Positions 15,634 through 23,793 of a stretch of 25,128 nucleotides of DNA are shown here, one piece after another. Both the position numbers and the translations under genes were made by a program. The notes beneath the pieces are model-generated. The model did not search any database. It worked only from the letters and a program-made list of their open reading frames with translations, and was not told the DNA's origin. Within the stretch, counting starts at the first letter, position 1, and each line of letters begins with the position of its first letter. The stretch is from a virus: IMG/VR virus record IMGVR_UViG_3300046004_000036, positions 1 through 25,128 of that record; one strand, 5' to 3'.

Positions 15634-17331
15634 TTATGCTCCGTTGAGTTGGGCTTTGAGGCTGTCAACCTCTGCTTTGAGTTCTTGGATGGCTTTGAGA
15701 AGCACGACAGTCAGGCGTTCATATTGAAAACCCTCAACTTCACCATTTTTGTAATTAACAAGTTCGGGGATACCTGCGTCATGAACTTCATCAGCAATCA
15801 CACCAAAATAGTCAATAGTTTGGTCATCACTTTCACATTTAGATTTGTAACGAACAGCCCTAAATTTATTGATGTCAATTTCTTCTAAATCACGGACATC
15901 TTGCTTGTATTTCAGTGCAGAAGTTGAATAAAAAAATGAACCATTAGAAAGATTGATAACCACATTGGAGCCAGAACCAGATGACAATGCTGTGGCGGCA
16001 AAAGAACCGCCAACAATTTGCTGTCCAACAATAAAAGCACCGCTATTATTAAAATAACCCCTCGGATTCCCATCCCCATCAGACAGCACGATGTAGTTGC
16101 TTGCTGTGCGAATGTCTAAGCCGCCTTGGTTGCCGCCGTAAGCGCCAATAATGGTGTTCTTGGAGCCTGTGGTTACTAAATATCCAGCACCATACCCAAA
16201 AAAAGCGTTAGTAGACCCAGTAGTATTGTTTAAACCAGCCTGATAACCAACAGCAGTGTTGTTAGAGGCGGTGGTGTTGGCGGCAAGAGCACCAAAACCC
16301 GCTGCGGTATTTTTAGAACCAGTCGTATTTGAGGCTAGTGTTGGATTATAAGTTGCTGCATCGTTACCACCAATTGCAGTATTTTCGCTTCCTGTTGTAT
16401 TTGCGATAAGAGTCTGTATGCCTACAGCAGTGTTTGGTGTTGTGGCTGTAACTGCTCTTAACGCTTGAAAACCAATGGCAACCTGATATGCTGGAGTTGT
16501 GGCATTTTGCATTGCTTGATAACCAAGAGCAGTATTTCCACTACCATTGGTTAGGCTGTATCCAGCTTGATAACCCAAAATAGCATTATTTGCGGCTGTT
16601 GTTCCACTATACCCCGCCTGATAACCTACAGCAGTGTTGTTAGAGGCTGTGGTGTTGGATGCTAGGGCTGATAAACCAACTGCTACATTATATGAGCCTG
16701 TTGTATTGGCATCAAGTGCTCCATATCCTATTGCTACAAGTGCTGTTCCCGTTGTGTTTGCAGAAGCACTACTTCTTCCTAAAGCGGTATTTTCAGTGCC
16801 ACTTGTATTTGAAAGCAAAGAATTTACACCTACAGCAGTATTATTGCCAACAGTATTTGCTCGTAACGCATTTTCACCAACGGCAGTATTTAAACCCCCC
16901 GTTAAATTTGACAGGAGGGCTTCTTTTCCAATGGCTGTATTTCTAGAACCACTCGTATTAGCCGCCAGCGCACTAGCACCCACCGCAGTGTTGGTGGCTA
17001 CAGCACCTGCGCCTTTGCCGACTGTCAGGCCTTCAATTACTGCACCACCAGTTAGGGTAGATACGCCAGTAACACCTAAAGTTGTAGATGCAGAAATAGA
17101 TGTTGCCGCTACTGTACTTGGAGTAGTTGCTCCCAAAGTACCATTCATTACCGCACCCGTCAGCGTCTTATTGGTCAGCGTATCAGTCGTTGCTTTACCA
17201 ACCAAAGTGTCAGTAGCCGCAGGAAGCGTCAAAGTTGTAGTACCAGCCACCGCAGTTGCCGTGACTGTAGTAGTGCCTGATGTGGTTCCAGCAAGAACAA
17301 GTGTTCCAGAACCTAGTGTTGAGGTTGCCAT
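15634..17331 (-). CDS. Tail fibre/spike with beta-repeat body and S74 chaperone domain
   Basis: 565 aa. After a Thr/Val-rich N-terminus (about residues 1-100) come about 17 units, each ending in N-T-A-V-G plus four residues (NTAVGASAL, NTAIGKEAL, NTALGYQAM, etc.), at about 20-24-residue spacing to around residue 425, a beta-roll repeat like those of trimeric adhesins. The C-terminus is an S74-type intramolecular chaperone: STSALKYKQDV, then YFGVIADEVHDAGIPELV, and YERLTVVLLKAIQELK. In S74 domains Ser and Lys five residues apart form the self-cleavage dyad (here S-T-S-A-L-K), so the domain should trimerise the fibre and cut itself off. Likely host-recognition fibre. AAGGAAAATT precedes ATG 17331. 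Confidence 0.86.
   Translation of the reverse strand: MATSTLGSGTLVLAGTTSGTTTVTATAVAGTTTLTLPAATDTLVGKATTDTLTNKTLTGAVMNGTLGATTPSTVAATSISASTTLGVTGVSTLTGGAVIEGLTVGKGAGAVATNTAVGASALAANTSGSRNTAIGKEALLSNLTGGLNTAVGENALRANTVGNNTAVGVNSLLSNTSGTENTALGRSSASANTTGTALVAIGYGALDANTTGSYNVAVGLSALASNTTASNNTAVGYQAGYSGTTAANNAILGYQAGYSLTNGSGNTALGYQAMQNATTPAYQVAIGFQALRAVTATTPNTAVGIQTLIANTTGSENTAIGGNDAATYNPTLASNTTGSKNTAAGFGALAANTTASNNTAVGYQAGLNNTTGSTNAFFGYGAGYLVTTGSKNTIIGAYGGNQGGLDIRTASNYIVLSDGDGNPRGYFNNSGAFIVGQQIVGGSFAATALSSGSGSNVVINLSNGSFFYSTSALKYKQDVRDLEEIDINKFRAVRYKSKCESDDQTIDYFGVIADEVHDAGIPELVNYKNGEVEGFQYERLTVVLLKAIQELKAEVDSLKAQLNGA
16238..16658. repeat. Near-identical 43-nt repeats inside the S74 fibre gene
   Basis: The segments 16238-16280 and 16616-16658 are the same except at two positions (a/t and g/t). 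They encode matching beta-roll units (SNNTAVGYQAG and preceding residues) 378 nt apart. Such long matches could mediate deletion or duplication of whole repeat units. Shorter similar matches occur throughout 15960-17000. Confidence 0.8.
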
Positions 17332-17340
17332 AATTTTCCT

Positions 17341-18714
17341 TTAAGGTGTTCCATTGGAGACAATGTTTGCAGAAGAGGTAATCAATCCAGTTGAAGACAT
17401 TGATGCAATTGTCGTTGCCCCATACTTGAATATCAACTTTCCACCACTTTCTTCAATAGTGAAGTTTGTAGTCAAGAGTTTAGGTGTAGATGCCGCAGTT
17501 CCAGTGGTGTTCTGGTTAAATGTTGGGAATGAGGTCAAAGATGCCGCTGACCCATTGGGAGCCAATACATCAGTACCAATCACCAATCCAAGGTTTGTCC
17601 TAGCTCCAGATGTAGTAGTTGCACCTGTACCACCATTTAAAACAGCAACAGTACCCGTCACATTAGATGCTGTGCCAGTGGTGTTTTGATTGAAAGTAGG
17701 AAAAGAAGTCAGACTTGCAGCCGAGCCACTTGGAGACAGAACATCTGTTCCTATGACCAAACCCAAATTAGTTCTGGCATCACCAGCAGTAGATGCTCCC
17801 GTACCACCATCAGCAACTGCTAAATCTGTGATACCCGTGATTGAACCACCAGTGATAGAGACATTGCTTGCCGCTTGGGTAGCAATTGTTCCCAACCCAC
17901 TAACATCAGCAGTGGTGAGAGTAACAGCACCAGTACGCCCTGCAACTGAAGTCACAAGGTCAGTGTTATCAACTTTCTCCCAAGCAGTGCCATTAAAGAT
18001 GGCCCAATCGCCTTGCGTCCAAGTCGTAATGCCATTGAGATTGGTTGAGCCTGTTACAGAGACAACATAGTAGTCTCCCTTTGTTCCTACGCTAGAAACA
18101 AGGGTAGGTGTATTAGTTGATGCGTTCCAAGTGCCTTCATAGTTCACAAATCCAGCCATAGCTGTAATCTGTGCCTGTAAAGAACTTAAAGTATCAAGTA
18201 CAGACTGAGAAGTACCGCCACCATTGGTAATAACTTTGATGCGTTCAGCAACATCAAAAGGAACAACCTCACCAACATTGATCTCACGACCATCATCAAG
18301 AGTGATGACAAGGCTACCATCAAAATCAATGCGAGCAGAGGCAACACCAGTGCCGTTAGAACCATCAACTCCATCACGCCCAGGAACACCATCTCGTCCT
18401 GCTGGCCCCGTTGCTCCTGCTGGCCCTTGCTTGCCATCTCTTCCATCTTTGCCATTCTTGCCATCCTGTCCATCTTGTACAGAGGCAACTTTGCTCTGAA
18501 TCTCGCCATTCAACTGAGCAAACTTTTGCTCCATGTCTGACTTGATCTTCTTCAAGCCTTGGATAACAAGTTCAGCGCCCTTGCCAATAGATTCGCTTTT
18601 GGCTTTGGCAATCTTCTCAGCGGCAGACTGTTGCAAAGCAGTAATGATCTCCATCTGCTGTTCAGCAGAGATTCCATCAATTCCTAGCTTACGCTCAAGG
18701 TCAGCAATGTCCAT
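17341..18714 (-). CDS. Collagen-like tail fibre protein
   Basis: 457 aa. The N-terminal 80 residues form a charged coiled coil (MEIITALQQSAAEKIAKAKS...). Residues about 82-123 are 14 uninterrupted Gly-X-Y triplets (GKDGRDGKQGPAGATGPAGR). A beta-rich region follows (about 190-260, FVNYEGTWNASTNTPTLV; then WTQGDWAIFNG). Two copies of a module of about 55 residues come next, each with GGTGA, ARTNLGLVIGTDVL and LTSFPTFNQNTTGTA. The last 42 residues resemble the end of the 91-aa protein at 8392-8667. Collagen-like segments in phage fibres form flexible trimeric shafts. It starts directly after the portal stop (TAA then ATG) and precedes the S74 fibre. Confidence 0.82.
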   Translation of the reverse strand: MDIADLERKLGIDGISAEQQMEIITALQQSAAEKIAKAKSESIGKGAELVIQGLKKIKSDMEQKFAQLNGEIQSKVASVQDGQDGKNGKDGRDGKQGPAGATGPAGRDGVPGRDGVDGSNGTGVASARIDFDGSLVITLDDGREINVGEVVPFDVAERIKVITNGGGTSQSVLDTLSSLQAQITAMAGFVNYEGTWNASTNTPTLVSSVGTKGDYYVVSVTGSTNLNGITTWTQGDWAIFNGTAWEKVDNTDLVTSVAGRTGAVTLTTADVSGLGTIATQAASNVSITGGSITGITDLAVADGGTGASTAGDARTNLGLVIGTDVLSPSGSAASLTSFPTFNQNTTGTASNVTGTVAVLNGGTGATTTSGARTNLGLVIGTDVLAPNGSAASLTSFPTFNQNTTGTAASTPKLLTTNFTIEESGGKLIFKYGATTIASMSSTGLITSSANIVSNGTP

Positions 18715-20775
18715 TTAGGTCAATTCCCTGGAAAGACGATTGAGAAACTCATCTTCAACGCTCGACATTTTGCCCTTCTTGTCAGCCATTTGCAACTCAA
18801 CAATCTTGGACTTGTTCTTAATGTCAGCTTCTTTCAGCATCAATTCAGCAATCTTAACCCGCTTGTCAAACTCTTTTGAACCAGCATCATCTTGGTTTGG
18901 CAGATTCTTGGTCATTGCCGCCATATTCTTTGCTTGCACTTCTTGAGGCATTAACTGAGTTTCCGCCTTCAACTTCTCAGCTTCTGCACGATTCTGTTCA
19001 GCTTGAGTTGCATTTACAGCAATCACAGCCTGTTTTGCTTCCATATCCAACTGTTGTTGAATCTGTTGCATTTGCTCTGCTTGCGGGTTGGGTTGGCTCA
19101 TTTTGTCCAACTGCTCTATCAGTTCATAGCGATTGGTCAGTGAAGAATTAGCCAAAACACCCTTCAGAATCAATGGCAACACAGGAGTGTTAGGGCCAAG
19201 AGTCTGGAGCAAACCAATAAACATCTGTTGCTCATGCTCACGGGCAATGATGCCCAAGGTTGCAGTGGGAATGAATGTCATGTCCACTGAAGGATAACGC
19301 TCTGGGTCAAACTGCATATACCTGAAAGCCGCCTTCTGGATGAAGGGGATCAGGAAGTCTTCTTGGAAGTTCACCAGAGTACGCTTGTACTTCTTGATGA
19401 TGGTGGCAACAGCCATAGACATACCACCTTGGCCCATGTCTCTAGCACCAGCACTGACCATACCTTGAGAATCCAAAGTTCCCGTGGATTGCAGAAGCAT
19501 TCGCTCGAAATCCTTGGCGGTGGATAGGTTGTTGCCATCAGTCTGCCCAAACTTGAAGGGATACAGAATCTCTGAAGGTGCGCCATTGGTGAGAATGGCT
19601 TTTCCAGGCTTAACTTCAAACTTAGCGCCACGGGGCAGACGGGTTGCATCCATTGCAATCATGGGGCTGGTGGTCAGCGCCAATGAATCCAAATGAGAAC
19701 GAATCTGAGCATCGATAGCTTTCTGCATATTGAAGGCTTTTTCCACTGTGCCACGCCCCAAAAGACGATTGGGAACAGTGTCATCTTGGTAGGTCAGAAC
19801 AGGGCGATCCTTCATCATGTAAGGATTTGCCTCTGCTTTCAGCAACTGCCCATCGTTGGCAATCACGACAATGGCCTCAACCATGTCTGAATATTCTTCA
19901 GCAGCGGAACTCTCAGGGAACAAATCAACAATATTCTTGTTTTCTTCAAGGTTCTCTAGGTACTCACGGGGAACCAAACCATAGTAGGTTAGCAAAAGCA
20001 CCTTTTCATCCTGGTACTGACTCACTTCTTGGGTGGGTTCCAAGTCAGTATCTTCATAAGTGGGCGTAATGTCTACTTTGCGGTAGATGCCACGCTCAAT
20101 GCCTTCAACAATCTTGTGAATAGAGATGTACTTCTCAATTGCCACCCCCATGCAGTCATCAACTGAGGTTCCATTGGGGTCGAAAAGGAAGTTTTTTGGA
20201 TTTACAGGTGAAATCTTGACCGAAATACGATCTTTTTCTACCACGCCAATGGCAGCTTGACCCATTTGACCAGGAATTGCCTGAGTAGATGGCACAAACT
20301 GCTTTTCAGTCTTAACGACAATCTCGCCAATGCCTGTGCCGTAGATTTCTGCCATCAACTCAATGGCATCAATGGATTTACGAATCTTGTCCCGCTTGAA
20401 ATCCTCCATCAACTGAGCTTTTAGGACTCCAACATCGATGGGGTTGTTGTTCACATCCCGAATGTCATCTTGAATGTCAAAGAATTCGCCCTGACCAAAG
20501 ATAGCTTCCATGATCTCAGCATGGCGAGTCTCTACAGCTTGTTGGGTGGCAGGGGTTACGATGCGTGAACGCTCAGACTCACGGGTTTTGTCTTCAGATG
20601 CCCACTGTCCACGAAAGATTCGCTCGTACTCAAGCCAATCGGGAAGGAAGTTGGTATCTCTGTAGTCACGCCAGCGGTTGCAATGGTCAGTAACAAAATC
20701 AGTCAGTTCTTTATCAGCCTCAGTAGGCTCATAAAACTCATTTTGCTCTAGCTTTTCTTGCTTATCTGTTGCCAT
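18715..20775 (-). CDS. Portal protein
   Basis: About 686 aa from ATG 20775 (an in-frame start at 20808 would add eleven residues but overlaps the terminase). The N-terminus has HCNRWRDYRDTNFLPDWLEY, then FRGQWASEDKTRESERSRIV, then QAVETRHAEIMEAIFGQ, the typical opening of large podoviral portals. The middle has beta and helical segments (RISVKISPVNPKNFLFDPNG). The C-terminus is Gln/Glu/Lys-rich and helical, as expected for the internal barrel. It would form the dodecameric DNA channel. Its start overlaps the large-terminase stop by one base (TAATG), and it is placed directly after the terminase. Confidence 0.88.
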   Translation of the reverse strand: MATDKQEKLEQNEFYEPTEADKELTDFVTDHCNRWRDYRDTNFLPDWLEYERIFRGQWASEDKTRESERSRIVTPATQQAVETRHAEIMEAIFGQGEFFDIQDDIRDVNNNPIDVGVLKAQLMEDFKRDKIRKSIDAIELMAEIYGTGIGEIVVKTEKQFVPSTQAIPGQMGQAAIGVVEKDRISVKISPVNPKNFLFDPNGTSVDDCMGVAIEKYISIHKIVEGIERGIYRKVDITPTYEDTDLEPTQEVSQYQDEKVLLLTYYGLVPREYLENLEENKNIVDLFPESSAAEEYSDMVEAIVVIANDGQLLKAEANPYMMKDRPVLTYQDDTVPNRLLGRGTVEKAFNMQKAIDAQIRSHLDSLALTTSPMIAMDATRLPRGAKFEVKPGKAILTNGAPSEILYPFKFGQTDGNNLSTAKDFERMLLQSTGTLDSQGMVSAGARDMGQGGMSMAVATIIKKYKRTLVNFQEDFLIPFIQKAAFRYMQFDPERYPSVDMTFIPTATLGIIAREHEQQMFIGLLQTLGPNTPVLPLILKGVLANSSLTNRYELIEQLDKMSQPNPQAEQMQQIQQQLDMEAKQAVIAVNATQAEQNRAEAEKLKAETQLMPQEVQAKNMAAMTKNLPNQDDAGSKEFDKRVKIAELMLKEADIKNKSKIVELQMADKKGKMSSVEDEFLNRLSRELT

Positions 20776-22034
20776 TAAACCCCCGATATGATGTCTACAG
20801 GCTCCCACTCTTCATCTTCTTCACTCTCAAAGTAAGATGTTACAGCCAATTGGTCAATATAACTCAAAGCATCAGGAAGGTCATCATGTACGCCATTGGC
20901 AGGAAACATCAAGAGTTGATCGGTAAATGCGTCCCAATCTTCTTCAGAGTTCAGCACAATACGCCCATGCTCAAACCGCCCTTGGAGACTCCAGATAATT
21001 CTGTCTGTCTTTTTCCTGTTGCCATGCGTTAGGTCAACTATGTGGGAATATACATTATTTTTCCGCATCAGGTCACTGAGGTACGGCAAAACAGCGTTTT
21101 TAAGTGCCCCACGCTCGATTCCCACCGAAATTGGCCTGTAATCCCGCATCTTCATCAGAATTTTGGCGGCAGTTTCCCGAATGTCCCACCGACCATGGTC
21201 AATCTCTTTGACAAACCATTTGCCATCATCAGTGACTTTGACCACTGCAATGGCACTCTCGTCTAGTCTTTTTTTCGCGTTAGCAGCTTGTTTAGCCACT
21301 TCTTCAAATCCTGCCAAGTCGATTGCAATGAAGTAACTACCATACTCAGGTTCCACACCATATTTGATCCAATCTTCTTTAAAAACATCGCTTCCTGCGT
21401 TGTCAAAGGATGCCAAGTATTCCTGCTTGAAAGCAAAGGAACTTAGCGTCTTCTTGGCAGACTCAATCTCAGTTGGGTCTATCAATGGGTTATCTTGGGT
21501 TGTAAAGTGCCAGGACTTCCAATCAGGATCAGTCTCCTCTTGGCCCATCTTGAACAGATCATAGAACCAGTTGCGTCCCTTGGGTGTACCGATGAATATG
21601 GCTCTGCCCTTTTTGTCTGACAAAGAAGCACGAATCACCTGTTCCCAAGCTTCAGGCTTAATGTCCGCAACCTCGTCTAGCACCGCATAGGTAAGGGACA
21701 CACCCCGTAGGGTATCTGGTCTATCAGCACCACGAACATAAATCTTTGCACCATTTATCATGGTGATATCCATATTGTTGATGTGACTGTTCTGGATAAC
21801 ATCCCTGCCAATCTCTAACAACACATCCCAAATAATCTGCCTAGCCTGTCCATTGGTAGGCGCAACATAGAGAACTGCACTTCCTGCTGGGCAACGCAAT
21901 GCTTCAATAATTAGCGTAGTAGCCGCTAACCTAGACTTTCCGCAACGCCGACCAGCAGCCACAACCTTAAACCTTGTTTTGTCAGTAAAGACTGTTTGTT
22001 GCCAAGGAAGGAGTGAGAAGTTGAGGTCAGACAT
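20775..22034 (-). CDS. Terminase large subunit (ATPase and nuclease)
   Basis: 419 aa. Residue W11/Q12 precede FKVVAAGRRCGKSR (residues 22-35), a Walker A (A27-G-R-R-C-G-K-S34). VLDE (118-121) in TYAVLDEVAD is the Walker B with its catalytic Glu. SPGLs-type coupling is seen in IFIGTPKGRNWF near 150. The nuclease half has YFIAIDLAGFEE near 235, SAIAVVKV, and HDDLPDALSYIDQ near 390, supplying acidic residues of the RNase H-like domain. It packages DNA into the procapsid with the portal and small subunit. The start overlaps the small terminase by 8 nt. Confidence 0.95.
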   Translation of the reverse strand: MSDLNFSLLPWQQTVFTDKTRFKVVAAGRRCGKSRLAATTLIIEALRCPAGSAVLYVAPTNGQARQIIWDVLLEIGRDVIQNSHINNMDITMINGAKIYVRGADRPDTLRGVSLTYAVLDEVADIKPEAWEQVIRASLSDKKGRAIFIGTPKGRNWFYDLFKMGQEETDPDWKSWHFTTQDNPLIDPTEIESAKKTLSSFAFKQEYLASFDNAGSDVFKEDWIKYGVEPEYGSYFIAIDLAGFEEVAKQAANAKKRLDESAIAVVKVTDDGKWFVKEIDHGRWDIRETAAKILMKMRDYRPISVGIERGALKNAVLPYLSDLMRKNNVYSHIVDLTHGNRKKTDRIIWSLQGRFEHGRIVLNSEEDWDAFTDQLLMFPANGVHDDLPDALSYIDQLAVTSYFESEEDEEWEPVDIISGV

Positions 22035-22419
22035 TTTTTGTTTCTACATCAGTCACATCTTGCAAGGGTTCTATCTCTACGCCACCAATGCCTGTGATGT
22101 TGATGGTAACGGCATTTCTTTGCTTGCCTTCTTTCTCAAACAGACTGACGGGAAGCATTCGATCCATACAGAGTTTGAGCATAGCGGCCTGTGCTGGGTG
22201 TTCATCATTCATGGCAATCTCAATTGCTTTGTGAACAACATTGGAACCAGCACTGTTTATCAGGAGGTCTTTCAGTTCTTTGATGCGCTGAACTTCAGTC
22301 TTTGGCAGGAGAGCCGCAGGTCTTTCAGCATAGGTAGCCATAGTGAACTTCTTATTCACAGCCCCTTTCGGGCGACCTTTTTTCTTGAGGTTGTTTGGCA
22401 GTGCATCAATCACATTCAT
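22027..22419 (-). CDS. Terminase small subunit
   Basis: 130 aa. The N-terminal part has a basic KKKGRPKGAVNKKF near residues 12-25. Then comes LKDLLINSAGSNVVHKAIEI (about 50-70), followed by AMNDEHPAQAAMLKLCMDRM, PVSLFEKEG and VTINITGIGG. This order (basic KKGRPKGA, then A.EIAMNDEHPAQ..ML..C.DR..P) is one I recognise in small terminases of podoviruses. It should recognise the packaging site and load the large subunit. ATG 22419 lacks a strong ribosome site (GGGTAAAGT precedes it), suggesting coupling to small upstream frames. Confidence 0.85.
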   Translation of the reverse strand: MNVIDALPNNLKKKGRPKGAVNKKFTMATYAERPAALLPKTEVQRIKELKDLLINSAGSNVVHKAIEIAMNDEHPAQAAMLKLCMDRMLPVSLFEKEGKQRNAVTINITGIGGVEIEPLQDVTDVETKNV

Positions 22420-22513
22420 ACTTTACCCAGTTATGGAAGTAGTATAGGTTGTTGGTGGACGGTTTCACCACAGTTCTAGCCGCCAGCTTCGCCATGTCGT
22501 GCAGTGGGCACAC
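22406..22513 (-). CDS. Possible 35-aa frame overlapping the small terminase start
   Basis: A GTG at 22513 opens a frame ending 14 nt inside the small-terminase gene: VCPLHDMAKLAART then VVKPSTNNLYYFHNWVKYECD. CGGAG lies about eight bases before the GTG. An ATG one frame away (22515) with the same ribosome site gives only a 16-residue peptide. Length and unusual start make this a weak call. If translated, it would couple ribosomes onto the small terminase, which lacks a strong ribosome site. Confidence 0.3.
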   Translation of the reverse strand: MCPLHDMAKLAARTVVKPSTNNLYYFHNWVKYECD

Positions 22514-22518
22514 ATGAT

Positions 22519-22614
22519 CTACTCCGATTCAATGCTTCTCACCAACACGGCTGGAGACTGCGGAGGAATTACCAGAGGCGGCGCAAGACCTAAGTCGGCA
22601 ACTGCTTGAACCAT
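22519..22614 (-). CDS. Possible 31-aa leader peptide
   Basis: The frame opens MVQAVADLGLAPPLVIPPQS and ends in RSIESE. GGGGA lies four bases before ATG 22614. Proline-rich and unlike any family I know. It begins immediately after the TGA of a 26-aa frame in the same reading phase (22615-22695), so the two would be one 58-codon frame but for that TGA. It lies 3' of a leftward promoter, so it would be transcribed. Confidence 0.35.
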   Translation of the reverse strand: MVQAVADLGLAPPLVIPPQSPAVLVRSIESE

Positions 22615-22695
22615 TCAGTCCCCATGCGTGATGGTTGTTGATGGCTGGCACTGATCTCCAGCTTGATGAGACAAGTTTCTTATGTGGCTTCTCAT
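22615..22695 (-). CDS. Possible 26-aa leader peptide
   Basis: ATG 22695 opens MRSHIRNLSHQAGDQCQPST and ends at TGA 22615. No ribosome site is evident. It is the first ATG frame of any length after the predicted leftward start site near 22740, apart from one short frame. The TGA is followed at once by the ATG of the next small frame. Support is only from position. Confidence 0.22.
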   Translation of the reverse strand: MRSHIRNLSHQAGDQCQPSTTITHGD

Positions 22696-22745
22696 CGTTA
22701 CATTACTTGTTGCACATCAGTCTGTGCATTCACCAACATGACTTA

Positions 22746-22774
22746 ACTATAAACAACTTTCTTTTGTTTGACAA
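22746..22774 (-). promoter_or_regulatory. Leftward sigma70-type promoter
   Basis: On the minus strand TTGTCA (22774-22769) is 17 bases from TATAGT (22751-22746). One mismatch in each box and optimal spacing. It would start transcription near 22740 and serve the terminase-to-lysis block. Its -35 box overlaps the -35 box of the rightward promoter. Confidence 0.72.
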
Positions 22775-22796
22775 GTGGGGTAAACCCTTATAGAAT
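22768..22796 (+). promoter_or_regulatory. Rightward sigma70-type promoter
   Basis: A perfect TTGACA (22768-22773), a 17-base spacer and TAGAAT (22791-22796, one mismatch). It would start near 22803, at the foot of the structured leader RNA. The spacer contains TAAACCCTTA, the motif repeated in arrays further right, so it may be an operator. Confidence 0.85.
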
Positions 22797-22800
22797 CTCA

Positions 22801-22892
22801 TCATCTGTTCGCGTCAGATGAAGCCTTTTAGAAGTGGTACAGCCTCTGAGCATTCGGGGGACGCGACTGTATCACCCCTAAAGGGCTTTTTT
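22801..22892 (+). ncRNA. Structured leader RNA/sRNA with loop-bulge pseudoknot and terminator-like end
   Basis: Read by hand: hairpin 1 pairs 22801-22807 with 22815-22821 (TCATCTG/CAGATGA) around loop TTCGCGT. Hairpin 2 pairs 22822-22831 with 22878-22887, then 22834-22842 with 22867-22875, then 22843-22849 with 22854-22860 around GCAT. A six-base bulge on its 3' side, ACGCGA (22861-22866), is exactly complementary to TCGCGT in loop 1 (22809-22814). Hairpin 2 ends in a T-run (22887-22892), so it looks like an intrinsic terminator. It also includes AAAGGG, the only ribosome site for the gene at 22894. It is placed directly at the predicted start site of the rightward promoter. It could act as an attenuator, a translational switch or an independent sRNA of about 90 nt. 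Confidence 0.7.
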
Positions 22893-22893
22893 C

Positions 22894-23118
22894 ATGGCAA
22901 TTGAACTTACTCCAGAAGAACAAGCTAACAAGCGTAGGATCACAAACCTCAAGGTGGCAATCCACCACTGGAAAGGCAGTATTTCAAACGCTGCGCTTGG
23001 TCTGGCAGTAGAGAAGAAAGGTCTTACAAATCAACAGTCTATTAGAAAACAGAAGCGCAAGGAACAAAAGAAGGCTCAAATGATTGTGAATTCGTTTGAC
23101 AAGGGTTTCCGTTTCTAA
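22894..23118 (+). CDS. Small basic protein, first rightward gene
   Basis: The 74-aa product opens MAIELTPEEQANKRRITNLK, continues VAIHHWKGSISNAALGLAVE and ends in a Lys/Arg-rich stretch (QQSIRKQKRKEQKKAQM). It is basic with helical propensity, so nucleic-acid binding is plausible, but no family is recognised. The ribosome site AAAGGG lies eight bases before ATG 22894 and is buried in the structured leader, so translation is probably controlled. As the first gene after a strong host-type promoter, it is likely an immediate-early product. Confidence 0.68.
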   Translation: MAIELTPEEQANKRRITNLKVAIHHWKGSISNAALGLAVEKKGLTNQQSIRKQKRKEQKKAQMIVNSFDKGFRF

Positions 23119-23122
23119 TACA

Positions 23123-23409
23123 TTGTCAACAAATGGGTGTCGGTAAAGCTACCCGACTCAACAGAGGGCGAACCTGCAAACCCCTGTTATGACCGCAGAG
23201 AAGCTAAGTAGAGAACTTAGAGTAAGCCTAGAAGTAGGCTCTCCCTGTGGCAGACACCCAAGCGGCTATCTGCTAAGTTTTTAAGCACTCGACATACCTC
23301 GGGTAGCCACTCCGTGCCCAAATGAAACTTGTCATCCAGCTAGAGACAAGACTACCCTAAGACTCCACCAACTCCTTTTCTTACCAAAGATTAGGCTCGT
23401 TGTTGGCAA
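23123..23409 (+). ncRNA. Candidate large structured RNA with pseudoknot
   Basis: No credible frame is present, but many complementary segments are. An outer helix is 23123-23132 with 23400-23409 (TTGTCAACAA/TTGTTGGCAA, one G-U). P1 is 23134-23141 with 23253-23260 (eight pairs). Inside it are AACAG-GGG (23160-23164, 23166-23168) with CCC-CTGTT (23181-23188), CCGCAG (23193-23198) with CTGTGG (23245-23250), CTAAGT/ACTTAG (23204-23220) and AGCCTA-GAAG-TAGGCT (23225-23240). GCTACCCGA (23148-23156) matches TCGGGTAGC (23299-23307), crossing P1, so a pseudoknot is possible. A hairpin at 23328-23350 (CTTGTC/GACAAG) follows. Size, multihelix core and pseudoknot resemble HEARO/omega-type RNAs, but no IscB gene is seen and the class is not proven. 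Confidence 0.6.
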
Positions 23410-23486
23410 AAGTCTAAATTGGCTTTTCTTGTGGATGGGAGGCACCACAAAATCTCTCACACCACACACACCCCCTCCCCCCCTAC

Positions 23487-23567
23487 AAACCCTTAAGGGT
23501 AAACCCTAATAGGGTAAGTACCTAGGTAGAAACCCTGACAGGGTAAACCCTTGGTAGTAGAAACCCT
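23487..23567. repeat. Array of five AAACCCT motifs
   Basis: AAACCCT starts at 23487, 23501, 23530, 23545 and 23561. The first two and the middle pair sit next to inverted AGGGT (CCCTTAAGGGT, CCCTAATAGGGT, CCCTGACAGGGT), so most copies form short palindromes. More copies lie at 22782, 23641 and 24634; reverse copies (AGGGTTT) at 23102, 23748, 24248, 24679 and 24959. Likely a protein-binding repeat. Confidence 0.75.
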
Positions 23568-23571
23568 TAGA

Positions 23572-23615
23572 TTAATTAACCGACCGGTCGGACGGGTTAT
23601 GCGTAAATTGCATAA
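23572..23615. repeat. Cluster of three palindromes
   Basis: TTAATTAA (23572-23579) abuts CCGACCGGTCGG (23580-23591), a perfect 12-base palindrome. Six bases later TTATGC and GCATAA (23597-23602, 23610-23615) form an inverted repeat with a seven-base spacer. Suitable as dimeric protein sites. Confidence 0.72.
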
Positions 23616-23793
23616 GCACCATTACCGCCATACCTAGTAGAAACCCTAATAGTCTATCCCTACTAACTTCAACCATTCAATAGCATTATCCTATTTAATA
23701 CTTTATGGTTCATAGGGTAATCACCTATATAAATAATGGGGGAACATAGGGTTTGTCCCTATATCAAACCTTGGTTGATGGCGTTATATTTAT

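Follow-up and report, generated by a model that had tools for sequence, protein, structure and literature searches.

New families of structured RNA turn up regularly; to our knowledge, those encoded by phages are few. The pRNA of phi29 is a phage RNA tied to packaging functions, and put of phage HK022 is a structured antiterminator RNA that lies near a phage promoter, ahead of early genes. The ROOL and GOLLD RNAs are highly structured phage or prophage noncoding RNAs of unknown function that are often found near tRNA islands (PMC12286853). HEARO RNAs are located in the 5' UTR of a nuclease gene (PMC9755519), and OLE is a folded RNA whose partner is bS21, a small basic protein (PMC12054373).

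We analyzed a freshwater phage from IMG/VR (virus record IMGVR_UViG_3300046004_000036); the whole stretch of 25,128 bases is referred to as the window. The late genes lie on the minus strand and include TerL (20775–22034) and a TerS-like gene (22027–22419), both window ORFs, and small plus-strand genes begin at approximately 23,800. Between these groups lies a cassette comprising a gene for a basic 74-aa protein and a structured RNA, designated type A. This RNA represents a new family of phage structured RNA, and the unusual part is its location in a slot where alternative RNAs are exchanged.

Comparison with described RNA families

The RNA had no Rfam match at the gathering score, and at E up to 10 a single chance miRNA match appeared elsewhere; Rfam searches of the window, the region and the relatives likewise returned nothing relevant. 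No match was obtained with the ROOL, GOLLD and OLE models, or at E up to 10 with the HEARO model (RF02033) in the library searched. A group I intron was rejected (no group I core model match and no interrupted gene at the site), as was a tRNA or tmRNA, since no tRNA-like fold was found. No description of this RNA was found in the open-licence literature searched.

The first-pass annotation had likened the RNA to the HEARO/omega RNAs that guide IscB nucleases, while noting that the window contains no IscB gene, and had otherwise suggested a new phage RNA class. No IscB with RuvC and HNH is indeed encoded among the window ORFs, and the adjacent protein has 74 aa and no known domain. HEARO resembles this system in being a folded RNA with a pseudoknot, and an HNH protein lies beside the type B RNA described below. 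However, membership in the HEARO family was refuted by the absent model match, the absent IscB, the position of the RNA, which is invariably 3' of the ORF among the type A cassettes and the type B loci examined, and the lack of a variable 5' guide segment in the type A alignment, where the leader is short (approximately 5–10 nt) and conserved. The suggestion of a new class is borne out by strong covariation, the absence of an Rfam match and a recurrent genomic setting.

Like ROOL and GOLLD, type A is a structured phage RNA, and in relatives, tRNA-like units are found between the RNA and terS. It differs from them in its length of approximately 205 nt (many GOLLD RNAs exceed 800 nt), in having no Rfam match, in the co-encoded protein and in its exchange with other RNAs in one slot. 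Unlike phi29 pRNA, it is accessory, has another terminase context and lacks an Rfam match. It is also much larger than HK022 put, and a convergent gene often abuts the end of the type B RNA.

Structure and covariation of the type A RNA

Relatives were gathered by searches with TerL, the 74-aa ORF and two RNA patterns, which together yielded approximately 45 IMG/VR phage contigs with the same RNA. The alignment contained 29 distinct sequences, all from metagenomic contigs, with several loci from one contig, a redundancy that the counting of distinct sequences lessens incompletely. The conserved core extends from 23126 to 23330 on the plus strand (covariance model R1, 212.9 bits); it is thus approximately 205 nt, and not 290 nt as first annotated. 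The predicted folding of the plus strand of 23123–23409 surpassed that of 200 out of 200 dinucleotide shuffles (z = –2.97), and the minus strand was not outstanding (z = –1.77, 8/200).

Within the core, helix P1 pairs UGGGUGUC (23134–23141) with GACACCCA (23253–23260); it is 97.7% paired, and two of its pairs are changed on both sides, with A-U/G-C exchanges. The strand GCUACCCGA (23148–23156), which lies inside P1, pairs over nine bases with UCGGGUAGC (23299–23307). The P3 hairpin (AACAG.AGGG/CCCCUGUU, 23160–23188) has A-U, G-U, C-G or G-C as its closing pair. P4 joins CCGCAG (23193–23198) to CUGUGG (23245–23250) with three covarying pairs, although only 85.6% of its cells are paired and the two innermost pairs fail in 12–13 sequences. 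It encloses the P5 hairpin (CUAAG/CUUAG, 23204–23220), which is longer in most relatives and has five pairs changed on both sides, with GC/AU exchanges in 8 sequences, and the invariant P6 hairpin (AGCCUA-GAAG-UAGGCU, 23225–23240). P7 (GCGG/CUGC, 23262–23273), located between the 3' strands of P1 and of the long-range pairing, shows one-sided changes only. The mini-hairpin P8 (CAC-UCC-GUG, or CGC-CUU-GCG in relatives; 23308–23316) has two pairs changed on both sides and is followed by a 3' tail, CCCAAAUGAAACUU (23317–23330), that is conserved in the alignment of type A relatives.

On the model-fitted alignment of the 29 sequences, 97.2% of the cells were paired, compared with 28–41% when the strands were slid by 1–3 columns. 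Double-changed cells numbered 77 against 30.7 in shuffles (0/500), as counted by statistics that ignore kinship and on an alignment fitted to the model. Changes on both sides were observed in 13 pairs, a pair count that by itself was reached in 5 of 500 shuffles. The alignment before fitting was 95.5% paired, with 13 such pairs and 61 double-changed cells. We therefore consider a structured RNA gene to be almost certain.

The nine-base pairing had been located by the first-pass annotation with exact coordinates, and it is invariant in 29/29 sequences. The crossing of P1 stands as well, and a pseudoknot is the best reading, although the helix, being invariant, is conserved in type A and not proven by covariation there. 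A nested alternative replacing P1 (columns 14–20 with 232–237) fits 98.9% of cells and is thus compatible, yet it was rejected because it showed zero double changes. The nested helices of that annotation also held, several of them with compensatory changes. By contrast, its outer 10-pair helix did not survive: the 5' strand (23123–23132) overlaps a predicted –10 box (23119–23124), and five relatives (L091, L094, L098, L099 and L106) have lost the 3' half or have another sequence in its place. Nor is the site free of visible genes, as had been thought, since the conserved 74-aa gene ends 8 bases before the core. The combination named there as telling against the RNA, namely no model hit together with no covariation and no transcript, did not arise, because covariation is present in the 29 distinct relatives.

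The 74-aa gene and promoter-like sites

The gene for the basic protein (22894–23118, plus strand) always encodes 74 aa, for which two long helices are predicted, and type A RNA always follows it; among the cassettes found, the two always occurred together. Between the window and diverged relatives, identity was 75–83% for the RNA, 62–70% for the ORF nucleotides and 27–60% for the 74-residue proteins, indicating slower change in the RNA than in the adjoining gene.

Two sigma-70-like promoters are predicted on the plus strand. The first (TTGACA-17-TAGAAT, 22768–22796), with 11 of 12 consensus bases, lies upstream of the 74-aa gene, and in type C relatives the promoter at this position stands directly before the RNA. 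Just before the ATG, a long hairpin with a T-run (22821–22892) is present, which also occurs in the type B cassettes with an HNH gene. The second (TTGACA-17-TACATT, 23096–23124) spans the end of the 74-aa gene, with a predicted RNA start at approximately 23130–23132, and the pattern TTGA..-17 nt-TA.... was observed over the gene end in 27/27 distinct cassettes.

The 74-aa protein of the window matched no Pfam, PHROG or PADLOC family, and some family members gave scattered weak Pfam matches to unrelated families (best E 0.001). When the profile was compared with the PDB, the top matches were bS21, at non-significant E values (0.027–0.18). The hhalign probability against bS21 was 3.6%, Pfam S21 matched none of 21 members, and a fold search with the AlphaFold model (pLDDT 76, pTM 0.43) found no convincing relative and no bS21. 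The likeness to bS21 is therefore a lead only. It recalls OLE, whose partner is that protein (here at E = 0.03, non-significant), but the RNA itself differs from OLE.

Alternative RNAs in the slot beside terS

Contigs whose TerL is 100% identical to that of the window carried different RNAs in the slot: type A in L002 and L003, type B in L004, and type C in L005, L007 and L012. Each of 25 long records had one type (A, 9; B, 6; C, 10), and none had two. Moreover, in relatives with 89–93% TerL identity such as L073, L075 and L081, terS adjoins the downstream hairpin and C-tract with no RNA between, which indicates that the RNA cassette is accessory. We regard an exchangeable accessory cassette as very probable.

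Type B combines the upstream hairpin of type A with an HNH gene (Pfam PF01844) and an RNA adjoining the HNH stop codon (L175–L294). It was also found in diverged phages, near replication genes and within approximately 2 kb of a TerS-like gene. Its consensus fold includes a helix from a loop to the 3' strand with one G-C/C-G exchange (6/18 sequences); once a P1 read by eye is added, the fold appears, again by eye, to be a pseudoknot of the type A topology. Downstream of this RNA lies a convergent gene in L216, L222, L231 and L249, and a replication gene in L225, L244 and L252. Type C, the most abundant (at least 120 contigs), is an RNA alone without an ORF; it has 20 covarying pairs and no Rfam match (L005, L007, L011, L013, L357–L475) and may deserve its own family. 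Against types B–E, model R1 gave only two chance-level matches, and B and C were undetected. The three types thus share topology only, as judged by eye, and their position and mutual exclusivity suggest functional equivalence. In L059, the slot holds approximately 450 nt of another sequence.

The region had no DNA match among cultured phages, and searches there for RNA A and RNA B gave chance matches only. The RNA A pattern had no match in bacterial and archaeal genomes; the 62 matches to the RNA B pattern there were rejected as chance, the other motifs of RNA B being missing. HNH relatives do occur in Vibrio phage 2.095.A, Sulfitobacter phage phiGT1 and Microcystis phage Mwe-JY08, where the next gene begins within approximately 105 nt, too close for RNA B to fit between. 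As a separate observation, structured-looking stretches of approximately 500 nt with no annotated genes and no Rfam match precede type-B-related HNH genes in cultured phages of Vibrio, Xanthomonas and Sulfitobacter (L477 1730–2255, L478 1187–1677 and L480 1197–1839).

Possible function of the cassette

Sequence comparison shows that 22894–23330 forms a two-part accessory cassette in the slot, consisting of the gene for the basic helical protein and the noncoding RNA of approximately 205 nt. The RNA, which would be transcribed from an apparent promoter of its own inside the end of the 74-aa gene, folds into a multi-hairpin domain closed by P1, with a strand inside P1 pairing beyond it. In the reading that we prefer, held with somewhat less than even confidence as a whole, the RNA probably acts in trans, either by itself as a stable molecule or within an RNA–protein particle that includes the co-encoded protein. 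It may serve host takeover, anti-defence or the exclusion of competing phages through binding to a target in the host or in a rival. This role in conflict or takeover, drawn from the genomic pattern only, is a tentative proposal; we favor it over an essential step of virion assembly because the alternatives replace one another at a constant position, exclude each other and are missing from some relatives. A more speculative extension, which we think improbable, is that RNAs A, B, C and the rarer ones constitute an interchangeable, diversifying weapon or shield, with or without a basic or HNH partner, and that type A RNA together with a bS21-like protein targets the ribosome or translation of the host.

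The strongest rival, because type B has an HNH gene, is a selfish homing cassette in which HNH and RNA spread together (type B), with type A as a nuclease-free derivative that keeps the RNA with a small basic protein. The HNH stop codon directly adjoins the pseudoknotted RNA, types A and B have the upstream hairpin and the slot in common, and TerL-identical phages differ in type, all of which is consistent with homing. However, the most abundant type has no ORF, the type A protein has no HNH, and the HNH relatives in the three cultured phages leave no room for RNA B. We consider homing unlikely.

Still less likely, in our estimation, is a packaging RNA or terminase cofactor, similar to pRNA, that works with TerS and TerL near the packaging site. 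The RNA cassette adjoins terS in the relatives of the window; in diverged type B phages, a TerS-like gene is found within approximately 2 kb, and a conserved hairpin and C-tract follow the RNA. HNH proteins are also known as packaging partners, as gp74 stimulates cos cleavage in HK97 (PMC11331095). Nevertheless, an essential role in packaging is disfavored, because some relatives (89–93% TerL identity) have no slot RNA at all, and differing RNAs beside identical TerL would be odd for a motor subunit.

Of the same low probability is a cis-acting leader or antiterminator, similar to HK022 put, for the rightward genes past the C-rich stretch. Such a position upstream of an operon fits the direction of the genes to the right in the window, the strong promoter-like site in front, and L225, L244 and L252, where RNA B precedes a replication gene; in addition, the RNA that follows is C-rich and G-poor, as in Rho sites. 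It does not fit the convergent genes after RNA B in L216, L222, L231 and L249, on account of which a general leader role is disfavored, and approximately 500 nt plus another promoter-like site separate RNA A from the next gene. Finally, a stand-alone HEARO/omega RNA for an IscB-type nuclease is scarcely credible, the similar size, the pseudoknot and the HNH protein beside type B notwithstanding, given that no model matches, no RuvC or IscB is present, the RNA is 3' of the ORF and the conserved leader is not guide-like.

With alleles swapped in near-identical genomes, strong covariation and a partner protein, function can be tested by comparing cassettes or exchanging them. Should the RNAs have a part in phage–host or phage–phage conflict, they would represent RNA-based anti-defence kept in the form of exchangeable alleles; a role in packaging or translation would instead bring RNA into processes that, in most tailed phages, are considered to involve proteins only.

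Other features of the region

Downstream of the RNA, a hairpin (TTGTGG/CCACAA with a GGGAGG loop) followed by CCCCCTCCCCCCC is conserved at 23429–23483 and is common to all slot types; it is possibly a packaging or termination signal. Of 193 C-tracts, 3 were at a locus end, with no clear excess of contig ends, and we accordingly make no claim of a cos site there. Repeats of GGGTAAACCCTAATAGGGTAAG-like motifs, perhaps iterons or operators, occupy 23485–23720.

Between terS and the slot promoter, at approximately 22440–22740 on the minus strand, variable modular units were observed, which also occur in L004, L018, L026, L050, L059 and L067. They are framed by GTTGTTGGYG ... CACCAACACGGCTGG ... 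CCCATGCGTG and were read as a tRNA-like array; one such unit in L018 and L059 matched the Rfam tRNA model at 44–48 bits, and ARAGORN called none. Farther away on the minus strand, 15634–18714 encodes two repetitive proteins, one with collagen-like Gly-X-Y repeats and the other with repeats of the NTAVGYQAG type, which by eye appear tail-fibre-like.
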